From assembly GCA_017460955.1 (NCBI GenBank), contig JAFTZY010000069.1, positions 1-59,288 on the forward strand: 59,288 bases of DNA, in the 5' to 3' direction. The number at the start of each line of letters is the position of its first letter. Position 1 is the first letter of the stretch. A model generated the notes under the pieces. The model was not told where the DNA came from, made no database searches, and saw only the letters and a program-made list of their open reading frames with translations. Both the position numbers and the translations under genes were made by a program. Positions 178 through 45,928 of this stretch are shown here, piece after piece. The stretch is from Oscillospiraceae bacterium (GTDB lineage: Bacteria; Bacillota; Clostridia; Oscillospirales; Ruminococcaceae).

Positions 178-980
178 TCAGCTCAATTCACTTTTCAACA
201 GTGCGATATCCTGACGGTTATCAATAGGCTTGATTCTTTCAAGTATTTTCTGTTCAACAGATTTAGACCAATAAATCTTCAGTCTTTTCTTAGCACGAGT
301 AATTGCAGTATAAAATATGCTGTGAGTTATAAGTTCATCTATTTCATCGGTTATAACTATTTTAACAGAGTCATATTCCAAACCTTGTGCTTTATGGATT
401 GAGACAGCATAAGCTATTTGAAACGGAACCGTAGTCTTTGAAGTTTCATCATCGTCCTCGTCAGTGCTTTTATTCTTAAAGACTTCAAACCGAATAATCG
501 AGTTTCCCTCCTGATTCGTTCCTATGATGTTGAAGTTACGATTATCCATATTTAATTCTATAAGAGGTTTATCAAGTTCGACATCAAATTGAATCGACTC
601 ATTTGCCTGACCTTCATTTAAAACAGCGAAATCTACGATTTTAGCTTTCATATTATTATGAATAACAGGAACTTCATCTTCATCACTGCTAAAAAACGAA
701 TCGGCAGCATCGTTGAATAGAATAGGATCACCGACTTTGTATCTTTGTATGCCACGATAAATCTCTTTACCGCTATTGTTTTCTTGCATGAAATGATTGA
801 TATTATTGATACCGTAAAGTCCTCCATAGTTTAAGCAAAGTATAATTTCATTTTTGGCTGCAGAAGTGAATATTGAAGTATCCAGTTCTGCCGAAAACTC
901 ACCTGCTTGTAATCTGTCGAAAACATCACTATCCTCATTATTGCCCTGCATTTTTCTGACATTATCCCATAGGAATCCTT
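178..980 (-). pseudogene. UvrD/RecD-like helicase, C-terminal half only
   Basis: The ORF of up to 257 residues from the ATG at 951 carries the C-terminal part of a superfamily 1 helicase of the kind often encoded beside hsdR. There is a motif V-like segment with IHKAQGLEYDSVKIV and a motif VI-like segment ITRAKKRLKIYW, both in the last 80 residues. Walker A, Walker B and the whole N-terminal ATPase half are missing. Helicase-like reading continues in frame a few codons upstream of the ATG (FLWDNVRK) to about 980, where it meets hsdR in another frame. This looks like the product of a deletion that joined hsdR to the middle of the helicase gene. The fragment is more AT-rich than hsdR. It is unlikely to have helicase activity. 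Confidence 0.75.
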
Positions 981-3900
981 CCTCAGCGACTTATACAGTT
1001 CTTTCGCCATAACGTCCTGAACCTTCTGATAAAACTCAGGATCATTGAATAACTTCTGGAAAGATTCATTATTATCAAGGAAGCATTGTGTAACGATCTC
1101 CTTGAATTTTTCGGGGAATAGGGAGTTGACAAACATCTCGGTGCTGTTGTCGCTGGCGTATTTCTTGAACTTCTTAACGTCTTTGTCATCCATGAACATA
1201 CGGTAGATACCTTCGATAATAACCCTGTCTGCATCGGTGAACTGACCGTCAAATCGTTCGTTGACCTTATCTATGATACTCTGTAAAGTGTCCTTTTTCT
1301 TGTTGGGCTTTTTTGGAGCAGTTGCTCCTGCTGGCATCCATACAACTTTCTTTTCATCGAGTATGATCGCTCCGGTATGCGTTTCTTTCAGGTTAGCATA
1401 TTCCAATCTGACCTTGTCATCTATATCAACGATATCCTTTCCTGATTTCGGAAGCAGTCTCAGAAGATTGGAAGTGTACAGATACTCAGCAAACAGGTCT
1501 TTATCGTGCAGTCTGACGATCTGGGTGATATACGCATAAGTCCTTGTAAACTTGCGGAGATAGTCACGGACTGCATACTGATCGTCATCGGAAAGATCTC
1601 TGTATCTGTCAATAACAGGTCGGAACATTTCTGCGAGCTTACCGAGTGCGGCTGCGTTCTGCCCTTTTCCCGTCTGCTTTGACATAAAGTCGTTGAATTT
1701 CTCGACATCATCATAATTGAACAGCATATACTCGTTCAGCTTGTTCCTGAGATCATACACCACATTCAGGTCTGTTGCACCCTCCATGGAAGATTCCTCA
1801 TAGAACGGCTGGAACGCTTTCTTGATGTCTTCCTCGGTGTTTTCAAAGTCAAGGACGAAGGTGCTTGCCTTTCCGAAGCAAGTACGGTTCAAACGGGAAA
1901 GCGTCTGCACGGCTGCTACGCTTTTCAGCTTCTTGTCCACATACATGGAATGAAGCAGCGGTTCATCAAAACCTGTCTGATACTTATTTGCTACAACAAG
2001 GATATTATTCTGACTGCTGTGGAACACCTTTCTGAACTTCTTGTCAGTTGTAATGCACTTGCCGTTTTCGTCAAGGTTCATAGTGGCTTCAGTAAACGGC
2101 TTTTCCATGGGCATTTCTTCCAGAGTAATTTCACCTGAAAACGCGATCATTACATCACAGCCTGCGGATTCCTGCGGATGATCTTTCAAATACTGCTTGA
2201 TTGCAAGATAGTAGCGTACTGCATTGGCTCTGCTGTCGGCAACGACCATAGCTTTGCCTTGGCCACCGATCTGGAATCTGCCGTTTGCAAGGAAATTCGC
2301 CATGAGCATTTCCGTCTTCTGCGTGATCGTATAGCCGTGTTTCTTGTAATACTTGAACAGCGCCTTGGATGCTGCTCCCTCTATCAGTTCGGGATTGTCC
2401 TCTGAGACTTTTACGAGCTTGAATGCTTCACGGATCGTGGTATAGTCCTGCAACACATCAAGAATAAATCCTTCTTCTATCGCCTGTTTCATGGAGTATA
2501 CATGGAACGGCATTTTTGTTGGTGTACCGTCAGCGCCGATATACTCTGTGCCGAAAACCTCGATTGTCGGACCTTTCGGTGTTGCGGTAAATGCAAAGAA
2601 AGACTGGTTTGCGTGTCTGCCCTGACCGACTACGCTATTGATAAATTCATCGGTGAGATCAACATCTTCAACCTCGATCTCCTGCTCGTCGGCATATTCT
2701 TTTACGGCTACGCCAATGTCGATAAGGCTTCTGCGGAGCATTCTTGCACTTTCACCGCTCTGTCCCTGATGTGCTTCATCAATGATGATAGCAAATTTCT
2801 TGCCCTTATAGCTGTCCATATCCTTGTAGCCGAACAGAAACTTCTGTACAGTGCTGATAATGATCTTCTTGCCGTCGTTGATCGCTTCTGCAAGGCTGTG
2901 GGAGTTTTTCTTATCGTCTATCGCTTCTACCAGACCGACTTTATGCTCAAAGCTGTTGATCGTATCCTGTAACTGTCCGTCAAGTACGACACGGTTTGTG
3001 ACTACGATAACGGAATCGAATATGCCTTCGTCGTTGGCATCGTGGATAGATGCAAGACGATAGGCGATCCACGCAATAGAGTTTGACTTGCCTGATCCTG
3101 CACTGTGCTGGATCAGATAATTATTTCCTGAACCGTTTGCCTTAACATCGGCAAGCACTTTTCGTACCACATCATACTGATGATAACGGGGAAACAGCAG
3201 CTTTTCTTTCAGCTTGCCTGTATCCTCGTCTTTTTCTTTTACATGGGAAACGAACCTGTACAGAATATCCATAAGAGAATCACGCTGTAAAACTTCTTCC
3301 CATAAATAATGCGTTGCATAACCGTTGGGATTATGGGGATTACCTGCACCGCCGCTGACTCCTGCACCGTTTGAACCCTGATTGAACGGCATAAAATAGG
3401 TACTTCCGTCTTTAAGCTGGGTTGTCATCCACACTTCATAGAGGTCAACTGCGAAATAAACGAGGAAACGATGATCGAGACGGAAGCAGAACTCTTTACT
3501 GCTGCGGTCGGTTTTATACTGCCTGATCGCACATTGATAGTCCTGACCCGTAAGCTGATTTTTCAGCTCCAGAGCCACAACAGGGATACCGTTCACAGAC
3601 AGCACCATGTCAATAGTATTGGTATTATTGGGAGAATAGCGGAACTGTCTTGTGCAGCCGAGGATATTTGCTTCATAGCGTTCCGTATCAACATCATTGA
3701 GCGATGTTTCAGGCTTGAAATAGCAGACTTTCAACTTGATGCCGAGGTCTTCGATGCCGTGGCGGAGAACATAGATCAAGCCCTGTTCGCTGATGCACTT
3801 TTCAAGGCGGAAATAGAGTTTTTCCTGTGCGTTCTCGCCGTAGTATTTGAGATACTTCGCCCACGCTTTCGGCTGTGTCTTTTCTATGAACTGACAAAGC

Positions 3901-4028
3901 ACGTCCATACAGATACACTTGTCAACATCGAATGCTGTACGGTCGATCTTGTCATATCCCCCCGCAGGTGAGAGGAAGAAAGTTTCGATATCCTGTTCAA
4001 AGCGTTTTTCTGTTGTTTCCAAGGTCAT
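831..4028 (-). CDS. hsdR: Type I restriction endonuclease subunit R with an abnormal C-terminal tail
   Basis: This 1065-residue protein is the DNA-translocating and cleaving subunit of a type I restriction enzyme. Visible parts are an N-terminal nuclease domain with VVALELKNQ (the ELK of the PD-(D/E)xK fold), Walker A SAGSGKS, a DEAH box (IIIDEAHQGQ) and the later SF2 motifs including FTATPKG and QTLSRLNR. Its ATG overlaps the hsdS stop by four bases (ATGA). The natural C terminus appears to end near ELYKSLRK. The last 40 or so residues are an out-of-frame reading of the adjoining helicase remnant, so the native stop was lost in a deletion at about 970-985. The core domains are intact, but the partner subunits HsdM and HsdS are both interrupted, so restriction is doubtful. 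Confidence 0.93.
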   Translation of the reverse strand: MTLETTEKRFEQDIETFFLSPAGGYDKIDRTAFDVDKCICMDVLCQFIEKTQPKAWAKYLKYYGENAQEKLYFRLEKCISEQGLIYVLRHGIEDLGIKLKVCYFKPETSLNDVDTERYEANILGCTRQFRYSPNNTNTIDMVLSVNGIPVVALELKNQLTGQDYQCAIRQYKTDRSSKEFCFRLDHRFLVYFAVDLYEVWMTTQLKDGSTYFMPFNQGSNGAGVSGGAGNPHNPNGYATHYLWEEVLQRDSLMDILYRFVSHVKEKDEDTGKLKEKLLFPRYHQYDVVRKVLADVKANGSGNNYLIQHSAGSGKSNSIAWIAYRLASIHDANDEGIFDSVIVVTNRVVLDGQLQDTINSFEHKVGLVEAIDDKKNSHSLAEAINDGKKIIISTVQKFLFGYKDMDSYKGKKFAIIIDEAHQGQSGESARMLRRSLIDIGVAVKEYADEQEIEVEDVDLTDEFINSVVGQGRHANQSFFAFTATPKGPTIEVFGTEYIGADGTPTKMPFHVYSMKQAIEEGFILDVLQDYTTIREAFKLVKVSEDNPELIEGAASKALFKYYKKHGYTITQKTEMLMANFLANGRFQIGGQGKAMVVADSRANAVRYYLAIKQYLKDHPQESAGCDVMIAFSGEITLEEMPMEKPFTEATMNLDENGKCITTDKKFRKVFHSSQNNILVVANKYQTGFDEPLLHSMYVDKKLKSVAAVQTLSRLNRTCFGKASTFVLDFENTEEDIKKAFQPFYEESSMEGATDLNVVYDLRNKLNEYMLFNYDDVEKFNDFMSKQTGKGQNAAALGKLAEMFRPVIDRYRDLSDDDQYAVRDYLRKFTRTYAYITQIVRLHDKDLFAEYLYTSNLLRLLPKSGKDIVDIDDKVRLEYANLKETHTGAIILDEKKVVWMPAGATAPKKPNKKKDTLQSIIDKVNERFDGQFTDADRVIIEGIYRMFMDDKDVKKFKKYASDNSTEMFVNSLFPEKFKEIVTQCFLDNNESFQKLFNDPEFYQKVQDVMAKELYKSLRKDSYGIMSEKCRAIMRIVMFSTDYKQVSFRQNWILQYSLLQPKMKLYFA

Positions 4029-4711
4029 ACCTCCTTTTTGCCCGTGACATATTCGTATATCAGGGATTTTTTATACTGCTGTAACTTCTCGATTTTCTGC
4101 TGTTTGAGGGCGATGAGCTTGTCTATCTGGGAGCATTTCTCATCAAGGAATGTTACAATATTATTTTGCTCCTCAACTGGTGACAGTGGAACTGCAACAG
4201 TATTAAAGTTTTGCGCCGGTAAACGCCATCTGCCAAGATTAGCGGCACCCTGTCCAAAGGCATAGAAAATCTTATTTCTATAATACATCTGAAAAACGTA
4301 AAGGAAATATCGTGGGTTCATCTCGGCATTACGCATTACAAATACACGATAATCAGGACTTGTTACACCTTCAAATTCTGAAATGCCTACGCCGCCGGTA
4401 AGTAAGTCCATATGGTTCATAGCAAAATCGCCGATATTGACTATCTGATAGTGAGCATAGGAATTTGCCATTTGTCCGCTGTTTTCATTGATATCTTTAA
4501 CCTTTATGCCACCCTGTGTTATAGATAATACTGTATCGGGTTCGTGACCAATAATGTCTTTCTTGATTTTAAATAATGATCTAATCGGCGCAACAGTCCA
4601 ATGCTCCGGTATCTCCCCGATCCACTCAACTCCGCTATCCTTCATAGCCGCATCAGGATCAAGCCCCTTTGTGACAGTCTCGGTGATAACGCTCTGCTTG
4701 TAGACTTTCAA
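4025..4711 (-). CDS. hsdS: Type I specificity subunit, C-terminal half (second target-recognition domain)
   Basis: The open frame from TTG at 4711 has 228 residues: the end of the central conserved helix (LKVYKQSVITE), the second target-recognition domain opening with MKDSGVEWIGEIPEHW, and the C-terminal conserved helix with CSQIDKLIALKQQKIEKLQQYK. It lies in the same reading frame as the upstream half and is separated from it by one TAG codon at 4724-4726 and four codons. Together they would form a normal HsdS of about 411 residues. The TTG start has no convincing ribosome site, so independent translation is uncertain. Half-length HsdS proteins can dimerise in some type I systems, so residual function is possible. 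Confidence 0.85.
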   Translation of the reverse strand: MKVYKQSVITETVTKGLDPDAAMKDSGVEWIGEIPEHWTVAPIRSLFKIKKDIIGHEPDTVLSITQGGIKVKDINENSGQMANSYAHYQIVNIGDFAMNHMDLLTGGVGISEFEGVTSPDYRVFVMRNAEMNPRYFLYVFQMYYRNKIFYAFGQGAANLGRWRLPAQNFNTVAVPLSPVEEQNNIVTFLDEKCSQIDKLIALKQQKIEKLQQYKKSLIYEYVTGKKEV

Positions 4712-4723
4712 CTTTTCTATCTG

Positions 4724-5257
4724 CTACTGTGCGTTGGAGATAAGTGTATCTATCTGGGAGCATTTGCGGTCGAGGTGGGCGGCAATGGCTTGCTGTTCTT
4801 CTTTTGAAGGGAAAGTGATGGGTATAACTGCCATTTCGTTACTCATGATTTTATAACCATTAATATCAGCTCTCCTACAATTGTGTGCAGAATAGCTTAC
4901 TGCATAGTGCAAGAATCCCAAATTATGTTCTAATGATTTTGGTATAAGTATTCCACATACATTAGTGATACTATATTTTCCTTTTCTCAAAAAAACTGTT
5001 CCGGCTTTCGCACCATCTGTTGTCCATGTCAAACTATCAACGGAATAATCATAAGTAGGTATATAACCAAGTATTCCATTATTAGCAGTTTGTGAGGAAT
5101 AAACAGGATAATAGTTTTCCTTTGAATCTTCTTCTATTTCTGTTTTAGCGATTACTCGACCTCTAGTAATAGTAAAGAGATTTTTTTTAAGAATGGTTTC
5201 CCATTTGTCAGGGATTTTTCCAATCCATTCAACTCCGCTATCTTTCATCTCACGCAT
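4724..5257 (-). CDS. hsdS: Type I specificity subunit, N-terminal half ended by an in-frame TAG
   Basis: This half contains the first target-recognition domain, opening with MKDSGVEWIGKIPDKW, and the start of the central conserved helix (CSQIDTLISNAQ), where TAG at 4726-4724 ends it. The following codons (QIEKLKVYKQS) continue the normal family sequence, so a CAG-to-TAG change is the simplest cause. I chose the ATG at 5257, which has an AAGGAG about 10 bases upstream and overlaps the end of hsdM. The first target-recognition domain and most of its fold survive, but the helix that spaces it from the second domain is cut short. Confidence 0.85.
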   Translation of the reverse strand: MREMKDSGVEWIGKIPDKWETILKKNLFTITRGRVIAKTEIEEDSKENYYPVYSSQTANNGILGYIPTYDYSVDSLTWTTDGAKAGTVFLRKGKYSITNVCGILIPKSLEHNLGFLHYAVSYSAHNCRRADINGYKIMSNEMAVIPITFPSKEEQQAIAAHLDRKCSQIDTLISNAQ

Positions 5258-7028
5258 TACCAAACAGCTCCTTCATCAGTGTTGTTTCCTCTTCCTCCAG
5301 TGCCTTGATATCCGCAAAGATATCCTCCGAGGACTGCGGTGCGGTAAACTTGTAGAAAAGCCTTGTGAACGGTATCTCATAGCCTACCTTGTCTTTCTTG
5401 CGGTCAGCGAATGCCAGCGGATTGTAGGGCAGGACGTTCTTTGCGATATACTCGTCAATATTCTCCGAAAGCGGAATGATCTCGCTGTCGCTTGCGCCCT
5501 TGACAGCCTGCGGCTTTCCCTTTTTCAGAATAGCCTTGCCGTTTTCATCTGCCTGTGCTGTCTCGACAGTAACCTTTGTAAAGCCGAAGAAATCATTATC
5601 AAAAGTTTTAGATTCCACAACAAGCTCACCGTTGGTATAAACTTCGTTTTCAAACTCCATGTAGGCTTTCATGATAAGCTCAATGCACTTGTCATCAAGG
5701 TCAACTCGCTTGTTGCCGATGTTCTTGCGGCGCTTTACGAAGCATTTTGAAGCGTCGATGAGCTGAACCTTTCCAAGACGGTGTGCAGGCTTGCCCTTTG
5801 TCAGCACCCAGATATAGGTAGAAATGCCCGTGTTGTAAAACAGATCTGTCGGCATCTGAATGATAGCTTCGACCATATCTTCCGTTATAACATAACGGCG
5901 TATCTCCGAAGCACCACTGCCTGCATCGCCCGTGAACAGGGACGAGCCGTTCTGAATGATCGCCATACGTCCGCTGCCATCTTTCAGCTTCTTGACGCCG
6001 TTGAGCATAAAGAGCATCTGTCCGTCCGAAATGGCAGGCAGTCCCTGACCGAATCTGCCGTCATAGCCTTTCTTGGCCTCTGCCTCAACTTCGGCTTTTT
6101 CACGTTTCCAGTCGATACCGAAAGGCGGATTGGAAATGATATAGTCGAACTCATAACCGCTGAATTTGTCATCGTTGAGTGTATCACCGTACATCATACC
6201 CGAAGCGTTACCGCCCTTGATAAGCATATCAGCCTTTGCGATAGCATATGTCTCAGGATTGAACTCCTCACCGAAACAAGTGAGGTCTGCTTCATCGCTG
6301 ATGTCGGTCAGGCGCTCCGTCAGACAGCCGAGCATCTGCGATGTACCCATAGCCATATCATATGCAGTCTTGGTACAGCCGTTCTCCTTGATATCGTCCT
6401 TTTCGGGAGCAATGAGCAGCTCGGTCATAAGGTAGATAATGTCACGGCTTGTGAAGTGAGCTCCGGCTTGTTCGTCATAGCTCTCGGAAAACTTCCTGAT
6501 AAGTTCCTCGAAAATGTAACCCATATCGGTAGAGGTGATCTTATCCGGTGCCATATCGCCCTTTGAGGAGATAAACTCCTGTATCACCACAAACAGAACG
6601 TTTCCGTCAGCCATTGTCCGCACCTGATCGGTGAACTTGAAGTTGGAAATAATATCCTTGACGTTTGAGGAAAAGCCTTGCAGATAGTTCTCAAAGTTGG
6701 ATTCAATATTATCGGGGTCTGATACCAGCTTTTTGAAATCGAACTTGCTTGTATTATAGAAGGAATAGCCCGAAGTCTTGCAGAGAATGCCGTCACGGGC
6801 TTCACCTTCGACTTTCATGCCTGCGAGCTTTTCGCCCATTTCCACTACCTTCTGTTTTGTCGGCGCAAGAGCATCGTCAAAACGCTTCAGCACCGTCATT
6901 GGCAGAATAACTTTGCCGAATTCGTGCGGCTTAAACAGTCCCACAAGATGTGTAGCAATCTCTCATATGAGATTTGCTTTCTCCTGAATATTGATGTTTG
7001 TCTGCTTCTGTAAAGAATTGATAGACAT
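5250..7028 (-). pseudogene. hsdM: Type I DNA methyltransferase subunit M, interrupted by TGA at codon 22
   Basis: The gene starts at the ATG at 7028, with AAGGAG seven bases before it, and reads 21 normal codons (to QEKANLI). It then meets TGA at 6965-6963 where the family has Trp, and continues EIATHLVGLFKPHEFG. The uninterrupted frame runs from a GTG at 6944 to 5250 (564 residues). It holds the methylase domain: NPPFGIDW (motif IV, adenine-N6 type) and a motif I region reading DMAMGTSQ instead of the common DPACGTGG, which may be a subfamily variant. HsdM would methylate adenine with HsdS as the DNA reader. The GTG at 6944 has only a weak ribosome site and would lose the first helix. Probably inactive or strongly reduced. 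Confidence 0.85.
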
Positions 7029-7039
7029 ACTCTCACTCC

Positions 7040-7564
7040 TTATATATAATGGGCATTCTGCTGCTCTTGCAGAGCCTGCTTGAAATTCGTCTTCGTGATT
7101 TTCAGCTCGTTAGAACCGAGCCTTATAACTTTTGGATAGCCGTTGCCATTCTCCAATTCGGAGATCGTGCTGCGGCTTTCTCCTTTTCCGGTTGTGCTAT
7201 GCGGCATCGAACCGACAATAACAAGCCTGTAATTGGGGTTATATTGCATTTTGGAGAACTGAAAGGTTTCTATAGACTTATAGTCAAGGCAGAACTCAAA
7301 CCTGTCTTTATCAAGTCCGAGATTTTTTACGATACCGAGCAGATCATGTTCTTTCACCTTTGAAGCGCCTATTACAACAATCGTACCATTTTTATGTGTA
7401 TCGTAAAAATCATCGCTGCTGGGTGCATCATTCTTCATAAGAGCAGATAAGCCCCAATCGGAAAGCAGACTTTCAAGTTCTCCTGTCCTGTTGGCGAGGT
7501 AAATCTTTTCGGTGACTGCATCTATGATTTCTTCAAGACGTTCTGTATCTAACACGATGATCAC
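7040..7564 (-). CDS. Conserved-looking protein of unknown function in the RM operon
   Basis: This is a 174-residue soluble protein starting with GTG, overlapping the stop of the preceding methylase fusion as GTGA, so translation is probably coupled. The N-terminal 50 residues are acidic and helical. From about residue 58 there is an alternating strand/helix pattern (TIVVIGASKVKEHD, then RLVIVGSMPHS), suggesting a small Rossmann-like or receiver-like fold. No catalytic motif, zinc ligands or membrane segment could be named. It sits between the methylase-specificity fusion and hsdM and ends 12 bases before the hsdM start, so it is part of one transcription unit. It may be a partner or regulator of the fused methylase; this is inference from position only. 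Confidence 0.7.
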   Translation of the reverse strand: MIIVLDTERLEEIIDAVTEKIYLANRTGELESLLSDWGLSALMKNDAPSSDDFYDTHKNGTIVVIGASKVKEHDLLGIVKNLGLDKDRFEFCLDYKSIETFQFSKMQYNPNYRLVIVGSMPHSTTGKGESRSTISELENGNGYPKVIRLGSNELKITKTNFKQALQEQQNAHYI

Positions 7565-9255
7565 CCCTCGCTGTCAAGCAGAGTTCTCTTTCGCTCCAAT
7601 ACTTTTTTCATTTTCCGTTTCAGTACAGCGTATTCATCAAGTGCCGCCTGGTATTTCTGGGCGATTGCCTTCTGCTTTTCAAGCGGTGGCAGAGGGATCA
7701 TGATATTCTTTACTGCTTCTACTGAAATTGTTTTAACGGCTGTTCCACCTGAAGCATAACTCAGTGCAGCTTCACCTGCGATACTATCAAAGAATGCCTG
7801 AATGTAATACGGATCAGCCTTGCTTTCGTCTATCTCGATAATGTAGAGATTTCCTGTTGCGATAATAGAATGATCATTATCGGAATTTACAACGGCGGAG
7901 CGGAAAGTAGGAGATGCCATTTTGGAGAGAACAACAGAATTATCAGGAATAACGAACTTTTCAAGTGCTTTCGGCAACTCTGTAATGTACTGCTGCCCTT
8001 CTTCGATATCTATTGAACCATTCGACACATTCGCAAGGGAAATGAACCTGTAATTGGAAGGCATAACAGATTTGATAGATTCCAGTAATTCGGGTTTTAC
8101 CTGTGACCCTCTTGCAATATTTTTGATGACATCTCCGAAACATACTCCGTTTTCTACAACAGGCTTTTCAAGATAATGTGAAGCCATGAGATTATAATCA
8201 TGCTCTCGCATATCTGCCGGAGAAACATCTATCGTTTTATCCCCGCCGTTTTTAAGACAGTCAAGTATAAACCGGATATTATCTTCAGAAAGTGTATTAA
8301 GTCTTCTGCTTTCTTTAGAAAAGCTGTTTTCTGCATTTACAAGTCGGATTGAAGTATTGTTATGACTGAATACTATCATAGTAGTTGGTATAGCAGTTTC
8401 GATGAATAGGGCAGGTGGAAGATTGATAACTGCTTCAATATAACCGTTCTCCGCAAAAAACTGACGCATATACATATCGGGCTTGTTAAACGCAGCTCCG
8501 TTCGTCATGATAGCTACTGCTTTGCCTGTTTCTTTCAGGGAGCGAATGATGATCGCATTGAACAGCCAGTCAGATGAGCATCTTGTAATATAAGAGCTGT
8601 CAATACCAAAGTGATCCTGCAATTCACGGCGGCACTCATCAAGATCGGATCCTCTGAGACCAAAAGGATAATTTGAAAAGATCTTATCATAACTTGAAGG
8701 ATAATGATATGTCAGTGCATTATTTATTACGAAGTTATAATTATCGCCGAGGAGAGCCCCTCTGAGAATTGCCACGTCATTTGAGTTGAAATTGATCTCA
8801 ACTCCGGTATATTCACTTACTTTTGTATCTTGCAAAGCATATATTGGAAAGGTTGCGCTTCCCGAACAGATATCAAGTACCTTGTCATGTTCCTTAATCT
8901 CAAGTATGCTGCTTGCAAGATTTGCTAAAGATACCGGGGTGCTCATTTCAAAGAATGAATTATCATAGAGAACAACTTCTTTTAATACGTCCGCATCAAA
9001 TCTGCCAATGAAACTCTGAACTGTTTCCCATAAGCCATTCAAGTTTCTGGAAAGAACCTCAGAAACATCGGGGGATACATTAGAGCTTTTAATGAATGTC
9101 TCCAATGAATCAGTGGAGACTGTCGGCGTTTTCCCAATTATGCTCAAAGCATAAGCTGTAGAAATAACAGCGCCACCATTATACGCTATTTTTCCACGAT
9201 AAGCCTCGCTCAGTTCAAACGAAATACCTCTAATCATATCAATTGTAGATTTCAA
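7561..9255 (-). CDS. N6-adenine DNA methylase fused to an HsdS-like specificity domain
   Basis: This 564-residue protein combines a methylase and a DNA-reading domain. After a helical N-terminal region, motif I appears as VLDICSGSATF near residue 125 and the catalytic motif as SNYPFG near residue 195 (NPPF with Tyr in the second place). From about residue 370 there is one HsdS-type target-recognition domain ending in the typical helix IPLPPLEKQKAIAQKYQAAL. No nuclease motif is visible, unlike type IIG enzymes. It starts with TTG behind a strong AGGAGG and is the first gene after the island promoter. It is uninterrupted, in contrast to hsdM and hsdS downstream. It could act as a separate methylase or as a modifier of the type I enzyme. 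Confidence 0.85.
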   Translation of the reverse strand: MKSTIDMIRGISFELSEAYRGKIAYNGGAVISTAYALSIIGKTPTVSTDSLETFIKSSNVSPDVSEVLSRNLNGLWETVQSFIGRFDADVLKEVVLYDNSFFEMSTPVSLANLASSILEIKEHDKVLDICSGSATFPIYALQDTKVSEYTGVEINFNSNDVAILRGALLGDNYNFVINNALTYHYPSSYDKIFSNYPFGLRGSDLDECRRELQDHFGIDSSYITRCSSDWLFNAIIIRSLKETGKAVAIMTNGAAFNKPDMYMRQFFAENGYIEAVINLPPALFIETAIPTTMIVFSHNNTSIRLVNAENSFSKESRRLNTLSEDNIRFILDCLKNGGDKTIDVSPADMREHDYNLMASHYLEKPVVENGVCFGDVIKNIARGSQVKPELLESIKSVMPSNYRFISLANVSNGSIDIEEGQQYITELPKALEKFVIPDNSVVLSKMASPTFRSAVVNSDNDHSIIATGNLYIIEIDESKADPYYIQAFFDSIAGEAALSYASGGTAVKTISVEAVKNIMIPLPPLEKQKAIAQKYQAALDEYAVLKRKMKKVLERKRTLLDSEG

Positions 9256-34868: not shown

Positions 34869-36659
34869 TTATGCCTCCGGCGTTTCCGGAGAAGCCTGCA
34901 GGGCATCATAGCCGCGCTCACCGGTACGGACCTTGACAACATCCTCCACATCGTAGATGAAGATCTTGCCGTCGCCGAATTTACCGGTATACAGGGACTT
35001 TCTGGCGGCCTCGAGTGCCGTTTCCACAGGCACCTTGGTGATGACTGCCTCGACCTTGACCTTCGGATGGAGGCTGGGCAGCTCCTGCTTGACGCCGCGG
35101 TAGTAAGCCGTATGGCCAAGCTGTGTGCCGTAGCCGAGCACCTGTGTCACGGTGATACCGTCGATGCCCACAGCAGCCAGATTTGCCTGGAGCTCCTCAA
35201 GCTTGCCCTGACGGCAGACGATCGAGAGCTTCGTGAGCTTGGCAGTCCCGGCATGTGCAGGCGCTGCCGGTGCGGGTGCGGGAGATACGGGGGAGGCGAT
35301 CTTGTCGCCGTCGGCACCGAGTGCATGGCGCACCTCCGTGCGGTCCACACGATGACGGTCGGCATCCCGTGTCATCTTCAGCATGGTGTCCGCAGCGGGC
35401 GCGAAGTCCGCATAGGAGCTTGCCAGACCGTGCTCGGTCAGATCCAGACCGATGATCTCCTCCTCCGCAGAGGCACGCAGACCGATGGTCTTTTTGATGA
35501 CAAGGAAGGTCAGGCTGATCGTGACGGCCGTCCAGGCACCCACGGTCAGGATGGCAAGACACTGCAGGCCGAGCTGGCCCATGCCGCCGCCGTAGAACAG
35601 ACCGTTTATCTCATTGCCGGGCACACTGCTCGTGGCAAACAGTCCCACGGCGAAGGTGCCCCAGATGCCGTTCATCATATGCACGGCCACTGCACCGACC
35701 GGGTCGTCCACATGGAGCACATGGTCGAGCAGCCATACGCCGAAGACCACCAGCAGTCCGGAGACGATGCCGACGATGGCGCTGCCGGCCGCATCCATCA
35801 CGTCACAGCCGGCGGTGATGCCGACCAGGCCCGCCAGGGAGGCGTTCAGACACATGGACACATCGGGCTTGCCGTACTTGAGCCAGGTGAAGATCATGCA
35901 GGTCACGGTGGCGATGGCGGGAGCAATGGTGGTCGCAACGAAGATGCTCGCGAGCTGTCCGCCGGAGGTGGCGGCAGCGCCGTTGAAGCCGTACCAGCCG
36001 AACCAGAGAATGAAGCAGCCGAGTGCGCCGATGGTCAGGTTATGACCGGGGATGGCCATGACCTTGGTGACCTTGCCGTCCTTGTCACGGCGGAATTTGC
36101 CGATGCGGGCACCTTCCATCGCTGCACCGATGAGGGCGGAGATACCGCCGACCATGTGGATGGCGCAGGAGCCTGCAAAATCATGGAAGCCAAGCTGTGC
36201 GAGCCAGCCGCCGCCCCAGATCCAGTGTGCCTCGATCGGGTAGATGACGCCGGAGATCACGGCAGAATAGATACAGTAGGATAAAAACTTGGTACGCTCT
36301 GCCATGGCACCGGACACGATGGTCGCGGTGGTGGCACAGAACACCAGATTGAATACGAAGTTTGGCCAGTCAAAGCCTGCATAATCCGTGAAGATCCCGA
36401 GGGTCGGAAGGCCTAAGAAGCCGCCGAGGGCATCCTCACCGAGGAGCAGTCCGAAGCCGAGCAGGATGAACACGACCGTACCGATGCAGAAATCCATCAG
36501 GTTCTTCATGATGATATTGCCCGCATTCTTGGCACGGGTGAAGCCCGTTTCGACCATGGCAAAGCCGGCCTGCATGAAAAATACGAGTGCGGCGCCGATC
36601 AGGTACCAGATACCGAATACCTCCGAATCGACCGCTTGTAATACGTCCTTGACATCCAT
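34869..36659 (-). CDS. amtB: Ammonium transporter fused to a PII regulatory domain
   Basis: This protein of about 596 residues moves ammonium through an Amt/Rh channel (about residues 10-420, eleven helices). The twin-His pore residues are visible as GHNLTIGAL and AVAVHMMNGIWG, and the Amt signature as FDFAGS-like FHDFAGSCAIHMVGG. After a Pro/Ala-rich linker, a C-terminal PII domain (about 495-590) has the T-loop with Gln and Tyr (TQLGHTAYYRG) and the nucleotide-binding TGKFGDGKIFIYDVEDVVKVRTGERG. In most bacteria GlnK is a separate protein; here the gate is tethered. The start at 36,659 fits the first helix. A long leader hairpin and consensus promoter lie upstream. Confidence 0.93.
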   Translation of the reverse strand: MDVKDVLQAVDSEVFGIWYLIGAALVFFMQAGFAMVETGFTRAKNAGNIIMKNLMDFCIGTVVFILLGFGLLLGEDALGGFLGLPTLGIFTDYAGFDWPNFVFNLVFCATTATIVSGAMAERTKFLSYCIYSAVISGVIYPIEAHWIWGGGWLAQLGFHDFAGSCAIHMVGGISALIGAAMEGARIGKFRRDKDGKVTKVMAIPGHNLTIGALGCFILWFGWYGFNGAAATSGGQLASIFVATTIAPAIATVTCMIFTWLKYGKPDVSMCLNASLAGLVGITAGCDVMDAAGSAIVGIVSGLLVVFGVWLLDHVLHVDDPVGAVAVHMMNGIWGTFAVGLFATSSVPGNEINGLFYGGGMGQLGLQCLAILTVGAWTAVTISLTFLVIKKTIGLRASAEEEIIGLDLTEHGLASSYADFAPAADTMLKMTRDADRHRVDRTEVRHALGADGDKIASPVSPAPAPAAPAHAGTAKLTKLSIVCRQGKLEELQANLAAVGIDGITVTQVLGYGTQLGHTAYYRGVKQELPSLHPKVKVEAVITKVPVETALEAARKSLYTGKFGDGKIFIYDVEDVVKVRTGERGYDALQASPETPEA

Positions 36660-36707
36660 ACATCTCAATCCTCTCTCTATGGGTTCGGGGCGGTACCATC
36701 CCCGCAA

Positions 36708-36764
36708 AACAGCAAGGGCACCGAAGCACATGCCCTGCGGCATCGCTTCAGCGCCCTTGCTGTT
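36708..36764 (-). promoter_or_regulatory. Leader hairpin of the Amt-PII gene (possible attenuator)
   Basis: On the minus strand a 12-bp perfect stem (36764-36753 with 36719-36708) is extended by 8 further pairs including two G-U, then an inner 5-bp stem with a GCAG loop. TTTT follows. It begins within a few bases of the predicted transcript start. Its 5' arm can also fold as CAGC-AAGGGC-GCTG, a hexaloop with A at position 1 and G at position 4, as in ANTAR target hairpins. Confidence 0.6.
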
Positions 36765-36773
36765 TCTGTAATC

Positions 36774-36803
36774 AGTATACTCCAAACGTCCCGTTTTGTC
36801 AAT
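36774..36803 (-). promoter_or_regulatory. Promoter of the Amt-PII gene
   Basis: Minus-strand TTGACA and TATACT are 17 bases apart, the -10 lying at 36779-36774. Transcription should start near 36,767. Confidence 0.8.
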
Positions 36804-43826: not shown

Positions 43827-43847
43827 GTGCTTCTCACTGAAAATCAA

Positions 43848-43871
43848 AAAGCTGCACAAACGTGCAGCTTT
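43848..43871 (-). terminator. Terminator of the GS-like / ANTAR operon
   Basis: AAAGCTGCAC and GTGCAGCTTT form a 10-bp stem with a 4-base loop; TTTTTGATTTT follows on the minus strand. Confidence 0.88.
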
Positions 43872-43880
43872 CAAAGGGGC

Positions 43881-44450
43881 CTACAATTCATAGGTGGACA
43901 GGATCTTCTGGGCGACCTCCTTGCGGGTCGAGCGGGTATCCATGGCCTGTTTCTCGATATAGCGGTGCGCCTCGGGCTCGGTGAATTTCAGGTACTGCAT
44001 GAGCGCACACTTGGCACGGTTGATCATGCGCATCTCATCGATCTTCACCATGAGCTTGGAATTCTCGCGCTTTAAGCCCAGCATCCGCGAGCGGGTCGCC
44101 TCCACCAGACGGATGGACTGGTGGAGCATACTGCGGTTCATGGGTCTGGGTACCACGCATACGCCGTAATCCCCGACCTTGTCGGAGACGTCATCGGCTA
44201 TGTCCGCCTTGCACAGGAGGATGATGCCGGCATTGGTGTTCTCCGCTAAGGTGATGGACAGATCATGCCCGAACTCGTCCACCAGGGGCGTGTTGATGAT
44301 GATGAGGGAGTACTCCATGCTGCCCGTCAGGCGTCTGGCCTCACTGCCGCTCTGGGTGGAGGCAATGCCGGTATAGTGATACGAATGCAGAAAGCCTGCA
44401 ATGATCTCCATGCCCTTGTCCGAGCCGGAAACGATCAGCGCTCTGTCCAT
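43881..44450 (-). CDS. ANTAR-domain RNA-binding regulator with degenerate receiver
   Basis: This 189-residue protein has an N-terminal receiver-like fold in which the expected phospho-acceptor Asp is Asn (LIIINTPLV, N53) and the final Lys is Arg (VVPRPM). The C-terminal ANTAR domain (about 135-185) has INRAKCALMQYLKFTEPEAHRYIEKQAMD, then ARG/SER-rich STRKEVAQKIL. ANTAR proteins bind paired hairpins in mRNA leaders and prevent termination, often in nitrogen genes. It follows the GS-like gene by about 35 bases, an arrangement like clostridial glnA-nitR. Since it probably cannot be phosphorylated, control may come from protein contact, for example with the GS-like protein. ATG 44,450 has better spacing from AAGGAG than the ATG nine bases earlier. 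Confidence 0.9.
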   Translation of the reverse strand: MDRALIVSGSDKGMEIIAGFLHSYHYTGIASTQSGSEARRLTGSMEYSLIIINTPLVDEFGHDLSITLAENTNAGIILLCKADIADDVSDKVGDYGVCVVPRPMNRSMLHQSIRLVEATRSRMLGLKRENSKLMVKIDEMRMINRAKCALMQYLKFTEPEAHRYIEKQAMDTRSTRKEVAQKILSTYEL

Positions 44451-44484
44451 GCCATCCACTCCTTTCTATCCCGTGATGCAGCCG

Positions 44485-45780
44485 TTATTCGGCGAGGAAG
44501 TACTGCTGCTCCTCAAAAAGCGCCTTGTCCTCGGCGGCATTGTACAGCGCCAGCTGACGCTCCACATTCTGGTACACATTGCGCAGGATCTCCTCGGGCA
44601 GCTGACTGCGCACAAATTCCGTGCTGCGTGCCGCATCGTATGCCTCCTCGAGCGTGGCCGGGAGATTCTTAAAGCCGCTGCTCTGCGCCTCGGTCACCTG
44701 CATGGCAGGATCGAGCTTCAGGCTGCGTTCAATGCCGTCCATGCCCGCTGCCAGCAGCAGCCGGAAGGACAGGTAGGGGTTGCAGCAGCAGTCGGAGCTG
44801 CGGATGTCGATGCGTGCCGGCTCCCCGACGGCCCCCGGGATGCGCACGAGGGGATTGCGGTTCTCAAACGACCAGTTGATCTGGTTGGGCGCCCCCCTGT
44901 GCCGCAGGCGGGTGTAGGAATTGACGATGGGATTGAGAAAGAGCGTGAGCTCTGCGGCATGATCCAGAATGCCCGCCAGGAAGCTCTCCCCCTCCGGGCT
45001 CATCCGGCCCTGCCGGTCATGGGAGAAGAGGTTGTGCCCGTCCTTCTTGACCGTCAGAACGATGGTCAGGGCACTGCCGTAATTCCCCGTCAGGGGCTTT
45101 GGCATAAAGGACGCAAACAGGCCGTTCTGAGCGGCAATGGTCTTGACGACGGTCTTGTAGTGGACCATGTTGTCCGCCGCCTGCACGGGCTCGGAGCATT
45201 TGAAGTCGATCTCGTTCTGGCCGGGGCCGTACTTATGGCACGAGCGCTGGGGGTTGAGTCCCATCTCCTCGAGCGACAGGCAGATCTCCCGGCGGGCGTT
45301 CTCGCACTTGTCGAGCGGTGCCACATCCAGATAGCCGGCTCTGTCGTGCGGCGTCTTGGTGGGGTTGCCCTCCTGGTCGCAGTCAAAGAGGTAGAATTCG
45401 CTCCTGGTGCCAAATTCGCAGGAATACCCCTTGGCATACAGCTCGCTGATATAGCTTTGCAGCGCATAGCGCAGCTCCCCGGCATAGGGCGTGCCGTCGA
45501 GGTTCTGGATGTTGCAGAAGAACCGCACCACCCTGCCGGACTTCGGACGCCACGGCAGCACGGACAGTGTGGAGACGTCCGGCACCAGCAGCAGGTCCTG
45601 GAAGCAGTCGGAAAAGCCCGCTGCATCGAGCAGGATGCCGTGGGACAGTGCGCGGGGCAGCTCCCCGGGCATGATGGCGATGTTCTTGAGATTCCCCTGC
45701 ATGTCGCAGAAGGTCAGACGGATGAACTTCACGTCGTTCTCCGTCACAAAATTCAGTATTTCCTTCGGTGAAACATTCAT
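44485..45780 (-). CDS. Glutamine synthetase-like protein lacking several metal ligands
   Basis: This 431-residue protein has the GS type I fold: a beta-grasp N-terminal domain and a catalytic domain with FGTRSEFYLFD, GPGQNEIDF, FMPKPLTGNYGS, WSFENRNPLVRIPG and RSSDCCCNPYLSFRLLLAAGMDGI. Compared with active enzymes, key positions are changed: the first Glu of the ExE motif is Arg126, the Glu before GPGQNE is Lys183, the His of the GxxH motif is Thr239 and the Glu of the (E)xR motif is Asp325. These normally hold the two catalytic metals. I checked the first three in the DNA. It is probably inactive in glutamine synthesis and may act as a sensor, since it is co-transcribed with an ANTAR regulator. 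Confidence 0.88.
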   Translation of the reverse strand: MNVSPKEILNFVTENDVKFIRLTFCDMQGNLKNIAIMPGELPRALSHGILLDAAGFSDCFQDLLLVPDVSTLSVLPWRPKSGRVVRFFCNIQNLDGTPYAGELRYALQSYISELYAKGYSCEFGTRSEFYLFDCDQEGNPTKTPHDRAGYLDVAPLDKCENARREICLSLEEMGLNPQRSCHKYGPGQNEIDFKCSEPVQAADNMVHYKTVVKTIAAQNGLFASFMPKPLTGNYGSALTIVLTVKKDGHNLFSHDRQGRMSPEGESFLAGILDHAAELTLFLNPIVNSYTRLRHRGAPNQINWSFENRNPLVRIPGAVGEPARIDIRSSDCCCNPYLSFRLLLAAGMDGIERSLKLDPAMQVTEAQSSGFKNLPATLEEAYDAARSTEFVRSQLPEEILRNVYQNVERQLALYNAAEDKALFEEQQYFLAE

Positions 45781-45814
45781 AATAGCCTCCCGTATTTCCT
45801 GCGAAACCGATCTC

Positions 45815-45845
45815 TACAATTATACACCAATCCGGCCTTTTTGTA
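45815..45845 (-). promoter_or_regulatory. Promoter of the GS-like / ANTAR operon
   Basis: Minus-strand TTTACA and TATAAT are 17 bases apart, the -10 ending about 36 bases before the ATG. The short leader has no room for paired ANTAR hairpins. Confidence 0.65.
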
Positions 45846-45928
45846 AAGCGGTGCGGCGCAAAAACTTGCATTTGAAAGCGGACGGCTCACAGACCATGCT
45901 GCAAGCCGCCCCTCCGGCATCTTTTTTA

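Follow-up and report, generated by a model that had tools for sequence, protein, structure and literature searches.

How can the nitrogen status of a cell reach an ANTAR antiterminator whose receiver domain has lost its phospho-acceptor aspartate? The question is raised by a gene pair on a contig from an Oscillospiraceae bacterium (JAFTZY010000069.1, positions 1 to 59,288; this whole stretch of 59,288 nucleotides is referred to as the window), in which a gene for a glutamine synthetase (GS)-like protein is followed by a gene for an ANTAR protein with a pseudo-receiver. We propose, with confidence somewhat better than even, that the pair acts as a kinase-free nitrogen switch, in which a degenerate GS predicted to bind 2-oxoglutarate controls by contact a pseudo-receiver ANTAR antiterminator of ammonium-assimilation genes. 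In this model the two proteins would bind each other, and as long as nitrogen is abundant and 2-oxoglutarate scarce, the GS-like partner would keep the ANTAR protein inactive. High 2-oxoglutarate, bound between the GS subunits, would free the ANTAR protein, which would then bind a hexaloop hairpin at the extreme 5' end of the transcript and block the terminator, allowing transcription of amtB-PII, glnN and asnA. The direction of control, with the complexed partner as the inhibitor, is proposed by analogy with NasS-NasT and AmiC-AmiR. The pair itself is a real conserved two-protein module, with an AmiC-AmiR-like architecture, a putative sensor of the GS family, an archaeal-type pocket and a predicted one-hexaloop ANTAR-type output. 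It is laid out as follows.

44485..45780, minus strand: GS-like gene, 431 amino acids, type I GS (GSI) fold with a degenerate active site
43881..44459, minus strand: pseudo-receiver ANTAR gene, 192 amino acids from the GTG start
45819..45847, minus strand: predicted promoter of the pair, TTTACA-17-TATAAT, 11 of 12 consensus matches
43847..43872, minus strand: intrinsic terminator 3' of the ANTAR stop, 11 pairs, fold z -3.54

The 25 nucleotides between the two genes contain no terminator-like site, and this short gap, together with the promoter and the shared terminator, makes it probable that they are co-transcribed as a two-gene unit, much as a sequence-only reading of this DNA had placed and described them. 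The likelier start of the ANTAR gene is the ATG at 44450 (Met4), Met4 being invariant in a 40-row alignment of the family. An attenuator within the pair's own leader was rejected, as the predicted leader of about 31 nucleotides leaves no room for one. None of 4227 Rfam families reached threshold in the window, and a search of viral contigs found no relatives. The sequence-only reading had suggested a comparison of gene pairs in relatives, and there the arrangement is kept: the pseudo-receiver ANTAR gene lies directly downstream of the GS-like gene in 79 of the 80 named loci, the remaining one being cut by a contig end. Across this genome and 60 relatives we find 48 ANTAR matches in 40 genomes, 43 of them receiver proteins and 5 standalone. 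All but one of the 43 receiver-ANTAR genes (42) stand directly behind a GSI gene; the 43rd borders a contig end, and another contig has a GSI at its end.

By fold and domains the GS-like protein is a type I GS. It scores above the Pfam cut-offs for Gln-synt_C (271.5 bits) and Gln-synt_N (51.2 bits), and its structure model (pLDDT 84.9) aligns with solved GS structures at a Foldseek TMq of 0.86-0.89 among the 50 matches listed. The NCBIfam GlnA model scores it at 303.6 bits, below the cut-off of 429.15, followed by gamma-glutamylputrescine synthetase as the second NCBIfam match at 232.9 bits (cut-off 650). Its active site differs from that of an active enzyme, the Mg/glutamate-binding residues and the Glu flap being altered. 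In the numbering of B. subtilis GS (4lnf, where chain index +1 gives the Glu304, Arg316 and Arg62 of PMC9249791), four of the eight Mg/glutamate-binding residues named for MtGS are changed, E132 to R, E189 to K and H245 to T, with E304 lost along with a shortened flap (287-295, pLDDT <50); E134, the loop glycine, R298 and R335 are retained. The GS-like pseudoenzyme of the sequence-only reading is supported as regards its degenerate active site, and its relatives share this state. In an alignment of the window protein with those of the 80 named loci (n=81), position 132 is Lys in 73 and Arg in 8, position 189 is Lys in 80 and Thr in 1, His245 is retained in only 2, the flap lacks Glu in 80, and Arg62 is present in none, while Glu134, Glu196, Arg298, Arg321, Arg335 and the loop glycine are found in all 81. 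That two former acidic ligands are kept positive argues for use rather than decay. The other two GS genes of the genome are of type III (GSIII; by frame length, and for the copy on contig C49 also by Pfam), and presumably their products make the glutamine.

The partner belongs to the ANTAR family (Pfam ANTAR 56.7 bits, cut-off 27.3), and its model (pLDDT 90.8) has a fold resembling Rv1626, EutV and AmiR. Response_reg is matched at only 22 bits, below the cut-off of 30.2. The receiver lacks the phospho-Asp, acidic pair and Lys of a phosphorylated response regulator: the phospho-Asp site is Asn (53 counted from Met4, 56 from the GTG), the acidic pocket reads SGS and the end Lys is Arg, confirming the pseudo-receiver of the sequence-only reading. 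Across the window protein and 79 relatives, the site is Asn in 64 of 80 and Asp in 5, the acidic-pocket residue is Ser in 75, and an SRF-type (GlnR-like) tail occurs in none. P58, L59, D61 and E62 are invariant in the 40-row alignment and form a candidate docking site. In a survey of the class (147 genomes), the phospho-Asp is absent from 66 of 73 GS-paired ANTAR proteins (Asp in 7) and from 3 of 20 unpaired ones (Asp in 17; 20 of the 24 unpaired class ANTARs entered the comparison), a difference with a Fisher p of 1.7e-10 that ignores kinship and includes distant receivers that are hard to align. The 3 exceptions among the unpaired proteins carry the receiver type of the GS pairs with no GS neighbour. 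This loss of the phospho-Asp with GS pairing fits the earlier suggestion that protein contact has taken the place of a kinase.

The same survey places the pair within a series that runs from enzyme to putative sensor. Of its 88 ANTAR matches, 64 lie 200-900 nucleotides behind a GSI match, with 94 GSI matches among the matches listed; GSI-beta-like matches of about 475-530 amino acids and GS matches of about 640 amino acids were left out. Counts of catalytic state cover the class set and order-level pairs, the window's genus not included; L319 (a fragment) and L348 and L349 (a distant GS family) were dropped, L346 and L347 were set aside as the GS is at a contig end with the ANTAR gene on another contig of the same genome, and the paired L318, whose flap is unreadable, was counted as altered. 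Every one of the 27 unpaired GSI proteins has all ligands, a full flap and Arg62. Among 72 paired proteins, 24 have the ligands and a full flap, 34 are without a ligand or the flap Glu, and 14, whose flap is shortened but still carries its Glu, retain every ligand and may still be active. Arg62 is retained in 19 of the 72. On a FastTree tree, which carried long-branch warnings, degeneration requires 4 changes and pairing 7. One genome (G095:C1:2277616-2280980; L325, L286) has in tandem an intact GSI, a flap-shortened GSI and the ANTAR gene, a possible snapshot of a split between enzyme and sensor.

What the GS-like protein may sense is suggested by a second site. In the passages of PMC10799026 and PMC11957540 that describe it, 2-oxoglutarate in archaeal GS is contacted by Phe18, Arg20, Arg88, Arg174, Arg175 and Ser191, with small residues at positions 34 and 94; B. 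subtilis GS has Tyr at 18 and Glu at 34 and is without Arg88. Transferred through alignments with M. mazei and B. subtilis GS, MtGS Phe18, Arg20, Ala34, Arg88, Val94, Arg174, Arg175 and Ser191 correspond to F19, R21, A35, R78, V84, R163, R164 and S180 of the window protein. The set FRARVRRS is identical in all 81 GS-like proteins, against a background in which 165 of 431 columns are constant in at least 79 of 81. Eight constant pocket positions beside a changed active site suggest a retained ligand, and from the residues we predict that the GS-like protein binds 2-oxoglutarate. In the class survey, FR[AS]RVRRS is complete in 65 of 72 ANTAR-paired GSI proteins, among them 45 of the 48 whose flap or ligands are altered, compared with 7 of 27 in the unpaired group (Fisher 9.7e-10, or 5.9e-9 if L346 and L347 are counted as unpaired, kinship ignored in both). 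Each of the seven unpaired carriers either has an ANTAR gene elsewhere in its genome (G062 twice, G165, G118, G141, G196) or stands in tandem with a paired GSI (G095).

A second, diverged GS-like/ANTAR pair is present in six genomes of the genus (L210-L214, L216; G019, G021, G018, G005, G027, G023), with E132 replaced by S or A, E333 by T and the pocket Arg20 by Lys. In G018, G021, G023 and G027 the contig also carries a GSIII gene at a distance of about 7 kb.

The predicted output of the switch lies upstream of amtB, 7 kb from the gene pair.

36707..36765, minus strand: predicted ANTAR attenuator in the amtB-PII leader, a hexaloop hairpin overlapping a terminator
36749-36762, minus strand: the hexaloop hairpin, CAGC(AAGGGC)GCTG, overlapping the 5' arm of the amtB-leader terminator
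36774..36802, minus strand: predicted amtB-PII promoter, TTGACA-17-TATACT, by eye
34869..36659, minus strand: amtB with a fused P-II domain, predicted target gene

A strict dual-hexaloop search of the window returned no site. It was replaced by a scanner for one hexaloop whose 3' strand lies inside a terminator arm, which finds one site in the window, that in the amtB-PII leader, sites in 19 of 30 amtB loci and none in 178,996 bp of shuffled DNA. In this genome, glnN (GSIII) on contig C49 (30.2 bits when the locus was searched) and asnA on contig C40 (E 0.0024) have leaders of the same design. An A1/G4 hexaloop exclusive with the terminator, as expected of an ANTAR target, is found at window 36707-36765(-), L223 2390-2471(-) and L230 1502-1551(+). 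The sequence-only reading had looked to paired hexaloop hairpins before nitrogen genes; ANTAR-type hairpins are present there, but they are not paired in this genome, as the amtB, glnN and AraC leaders have one A1/G4 hexaloop each, and a clear second hexaloop is found in 4 of 27 attenuators. Across these 27, the hairpin pairs covary, with 17 double-changed cells against a shuffled mean of 4.0. For the three leaders of this genome, folding favours the terminator as the minimum-energy structure (z -8.73, -7.97 and -6.61), so read-through would need an activator.

In 1,046,195 bp of the relatives' loci, which overlap partly so that several matches count twice, the scanner makes 26 matches, 15 of them before amtB; the others, assigned by eye, precede GSIII, the GS-like gene in two order relatives, an asparagine-synthase-like gene and AraC regulators. 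A model built from 21 leaders found by the scanner (R1) gives 95 matches in the 61 genomes at E<=0.01, or 83 after antisense copies are removed. As its seeds came from the scanner, its 98.1% pairing is partly by construction, and the GSIII matches are the independent part. Of 31 matches at E<=1e-4, 23 stand before amtB (16 seeds, 7 not), 5 before GSIII (no seeds) and 3 elsewhere, namely in an asnA-GSIII leader (G043), before an asparagine-synthase-like gene (G023, a seed) and in G006. Sorted by script, 41 of the 83 fall outside amtB and GSIII, 3 at E<=1e-4, 10 up to 1e-3 and 28 weaker; a gltB-like gene in G019 is also preceded by an attenuator, and this genome has a further weak match at C69:14069 (E 0.149). 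Pattern matches on contigs C20 and C81 were discarded, the scanner finding no attenuator there. The order GS-like gene, ANTAR gene, attenuator, amtB occurs in 8 genomes. By hand tallies that ignore kinship, strong attenuators are present in 26 of the 61 genomes, with the pair in 23 of those 26 and in 17 of the other 35, and amtB is present in 23 of 26 genus genomes with the pair versus 3 of 11 without it.

Several further features accompany these leaders. The genome encodes only two ANTAR proteins, the paired one and a standalone protein of 64 amino acids on contig C47 (L003:4785-4976, plus strand), flanked by gdhA and an AraC/receiver gene. Two attenuator candidates precede the AraC gene (L003 5764-5809 and 5949-5986, minus strand), and three relatives (L226, L227, L228) have candidates at their own standalone-ANTAR loci. 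In L258 and L253, divergent glutamate-synthase-type genes and GSIII (or asnA-GSIII) have an attenuator on each side. Behind the amtB terminator, window 36681-36705 (minus strand) holds a T-box-like string, TGGTACCGCC, in a small inverted repeat; similar strings occur in the amtB leaders of L104, L108 and L110, and Rfam reports no T-box in the window.

Four other explanations need to be weighed against our model. The GS-like protein could run the same switch with its former substrate site as the sensor of glutamine (or glutamate). The binding of GlnR by feedback-inhibited GS is an established precedent for this (PMC9249791), and Arg298, Arg335 and the loop glycine of the glutamate site are retained in all 81 proteins. 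Glutamine was also the ligand that the sequence-only reading had in mind. We nevertheless judge this unlikely, as Glu304 and Arg62, which hold glutamine and carry its feedback in B. subtilis GS (PMC9249791), are gone from the family while the 2-oxoglutarate pocket is complete, and the SRF-type tail is missing from all 80 ANTAR partners. If, within a true regulatory pair, the GS-like protein served as an unvarying scaffold or chaperone for its partner and sensed no small molecule, the nitrogen signal would come from elsewhere, for example from the P-II domain fused to AmtB, which is encoded within the target gene itself; the binding of GlnR likewise shows that a GS can act by holding a regulator (PMC9249791). 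The constancy of all eight pocket positions beside an altered active site suggests a kept ligand, and we regard the scaffold as rather improbable. The attenuators might instead be read by the standalone protein on C47, the pair having other targets or none, an idea favoured by the presence of only two ANTAR proteins in the genome and by the position of this one beside gdhA and an AraC gene that is itself preceded by attenuator candidates. However, standalone ANTARs are found in 5 of 61 genomes and strong attenuators in 26, of which 23 have the pair, and in the 8 genomes noted above the attenuated amtB directly follows it, which leaves little probability for this account. Finally, the GS-like protein might still be an enzyme with a different substrate, with the ANTAR gene merely controlling its own operon. 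The GS family does include enzymes for other ligations, gamma-glutamylputrescine synthetase being the second NCBIfam match here, and the 14 shortened-flap paired proteins may be active; in nearly all of the 81, though, two metal-site Glu residues have become Lys or Arg, with which ATP-dependent ligation should stop, and we consider this explanation very improbable.

Other observations weigh against the 2-oxoglutarate switch that we favour. As to the pocket, 7 of the 72 paired GSI proteins break the set and 7 of the 27 unpaired ones keep it; equivalents of Arg174, Arg175 and Ser191 are also present in B. subtilis GS, so that four pocket positions discriminate, and subunit packing may be what preserves these residues. 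For pairing against pocket, the tree yields only 5 independent lineage pairs with support, of which about 3 agree and 0 oppose (p 0.25), and for pairing against degeneration it is uninformative (0.2 of 5). As to the RNA, a single hexaloop takes the place of the canonical two in the attenuators tested in this genome, the window amtB terminator has a short T tract, and the whole-genome R1 search missed the glnN leader. A strong attenuator occurs with no detected pair in G006, G013 and G029 (83, 83 and 59% complete), 17 of the 40 pair-bearing genomes have no attenuator match at E<=1e-4, and the standalone C47 protein could read the attenuators. The sign of control draws on analogy and on an effect in C. 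thermocellum, where removing the type I GS reportedly raises nitrogen genes despite high glutamine. The deletion (Rydzak 2017) is described as lowering amino acid secretion (PMC9888227).

The proposed switch resembles several known systems, each in part. With AmiC-AmiR of P. aeruginosa and NasS-NasT of P. denitrificans it would share a ligand-sensing partner that controls an ANTAR protein through contact; the receiver of AmiR is likewise a pseudo-receiver (PMC8934654), the NasS-NasT complex is described as dissociating upon ligand binding (PMC3795266), and the window ANTAR model matches the AmiR chains of 1qo0. The sensors differ, being an amide receptor and an NrtA-like nitrate-binding protein there and a degenerate GS fold, not a sensor of the binding-protein type, here. 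In the GS-GlnR and GS-TnrA systems of Bacilli, as described in PMC9249791, a GSI encoded beside a nitrogen regulator also senses by contact, but that GS is active, responds to glutamine through Glu304 and Arg62 and binds the C-terminal tail of a DNA-binding repressor, whereas the window pair is without Glu304, Arg62 and the SRF tail and its output belongs to an RNA-binding family. The resemblance to clostridial glnA-nitR noticed in the sequence-only reading is real in gene order, a GSI gene standing beside a receiver-ANTAR gene in C. acetobutylicum and in C. thermocellum (Clo1313_2031/2030, neighbours by locus number), for which the neighbourhood is in print; compared here by description, those systems are presented as enzymes with an antiterminator, and the cited passages do not take up their catalytic state, 2-oxoglutarate pocket or targets (PMC4676874, PMC9888227). 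The 2-oxoglutarate-activated GS of M. thermolithotrophicus and M. mazei agree by alignment at all eight pocket positions, but are described as active enzymes, unlike the degenerate window protein, and an ANTAR partner is not mentioned for them in the cited passages. EutV/NasR-type RNA also has, upstream of nitrogen genes, an A1/G4 hexaloop hairpin that cannot coexist with a terminator; by the account in PMC3369931 it needs two hexaloops a short linker apart, whereas here there is one, at the very 5' end.

Elsewhere in the window, genes at 831-9255 (minus strand) resemble, by eye, a type I restriction-modification system.

831-4028, minus strand: HsdR-like, by eye
5250-6944, minus strand: HsdM-like, by eye
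7561-9255, minus strand: second methylase/specificity-like open reading frame, by eye

Among the matches listed in open PMC full texts, none links a GS pseudoenzyme with an ANTAR protein or 2-oxoglutarate with ANTAR. New here are the tracking of phospho-Asp loss with GS pairing, the intact state of unpaired GSI, the retention of the pocket with loss of the glutamine-feedback residues, and the attenuators before amtB-PII, glnN and asnA. Active-site change affects the flap in many families and the metal ligands in some, and in the Ruminococcus relatives two metal-site Glu residues have become Lys or Arg. Tentatively, and with a little less than even confidence, we suggest that Clostridia have a nitrogen control of their own, in which a former GS enzyme acts as receptor for 2-oxoglutarate and the output is through RNA, the pocket being kept while catalysis decays, the receiver abandoning phosphorylation and one-hairpin attenuators of amtB-PII, glnN and asnA, and in relatives also of gltB, serving as output. 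If this is true, every part of a kinase-free system would be named: 2-oxoglutarate as signal, a former GS enzyme as sensor, a pseudo-receiver as transducer and an attenuator as output. Living species would then show the successive stages between an active enzyme and a dedicated sensor, and a pocket known from archaeal GS would seem to work as a receptor in bacteria. Nitrogen sensing is poorly known in many Clostridia, including fibre degraders of the gut and rumen, and it is for these organisms that such a switch may matter.

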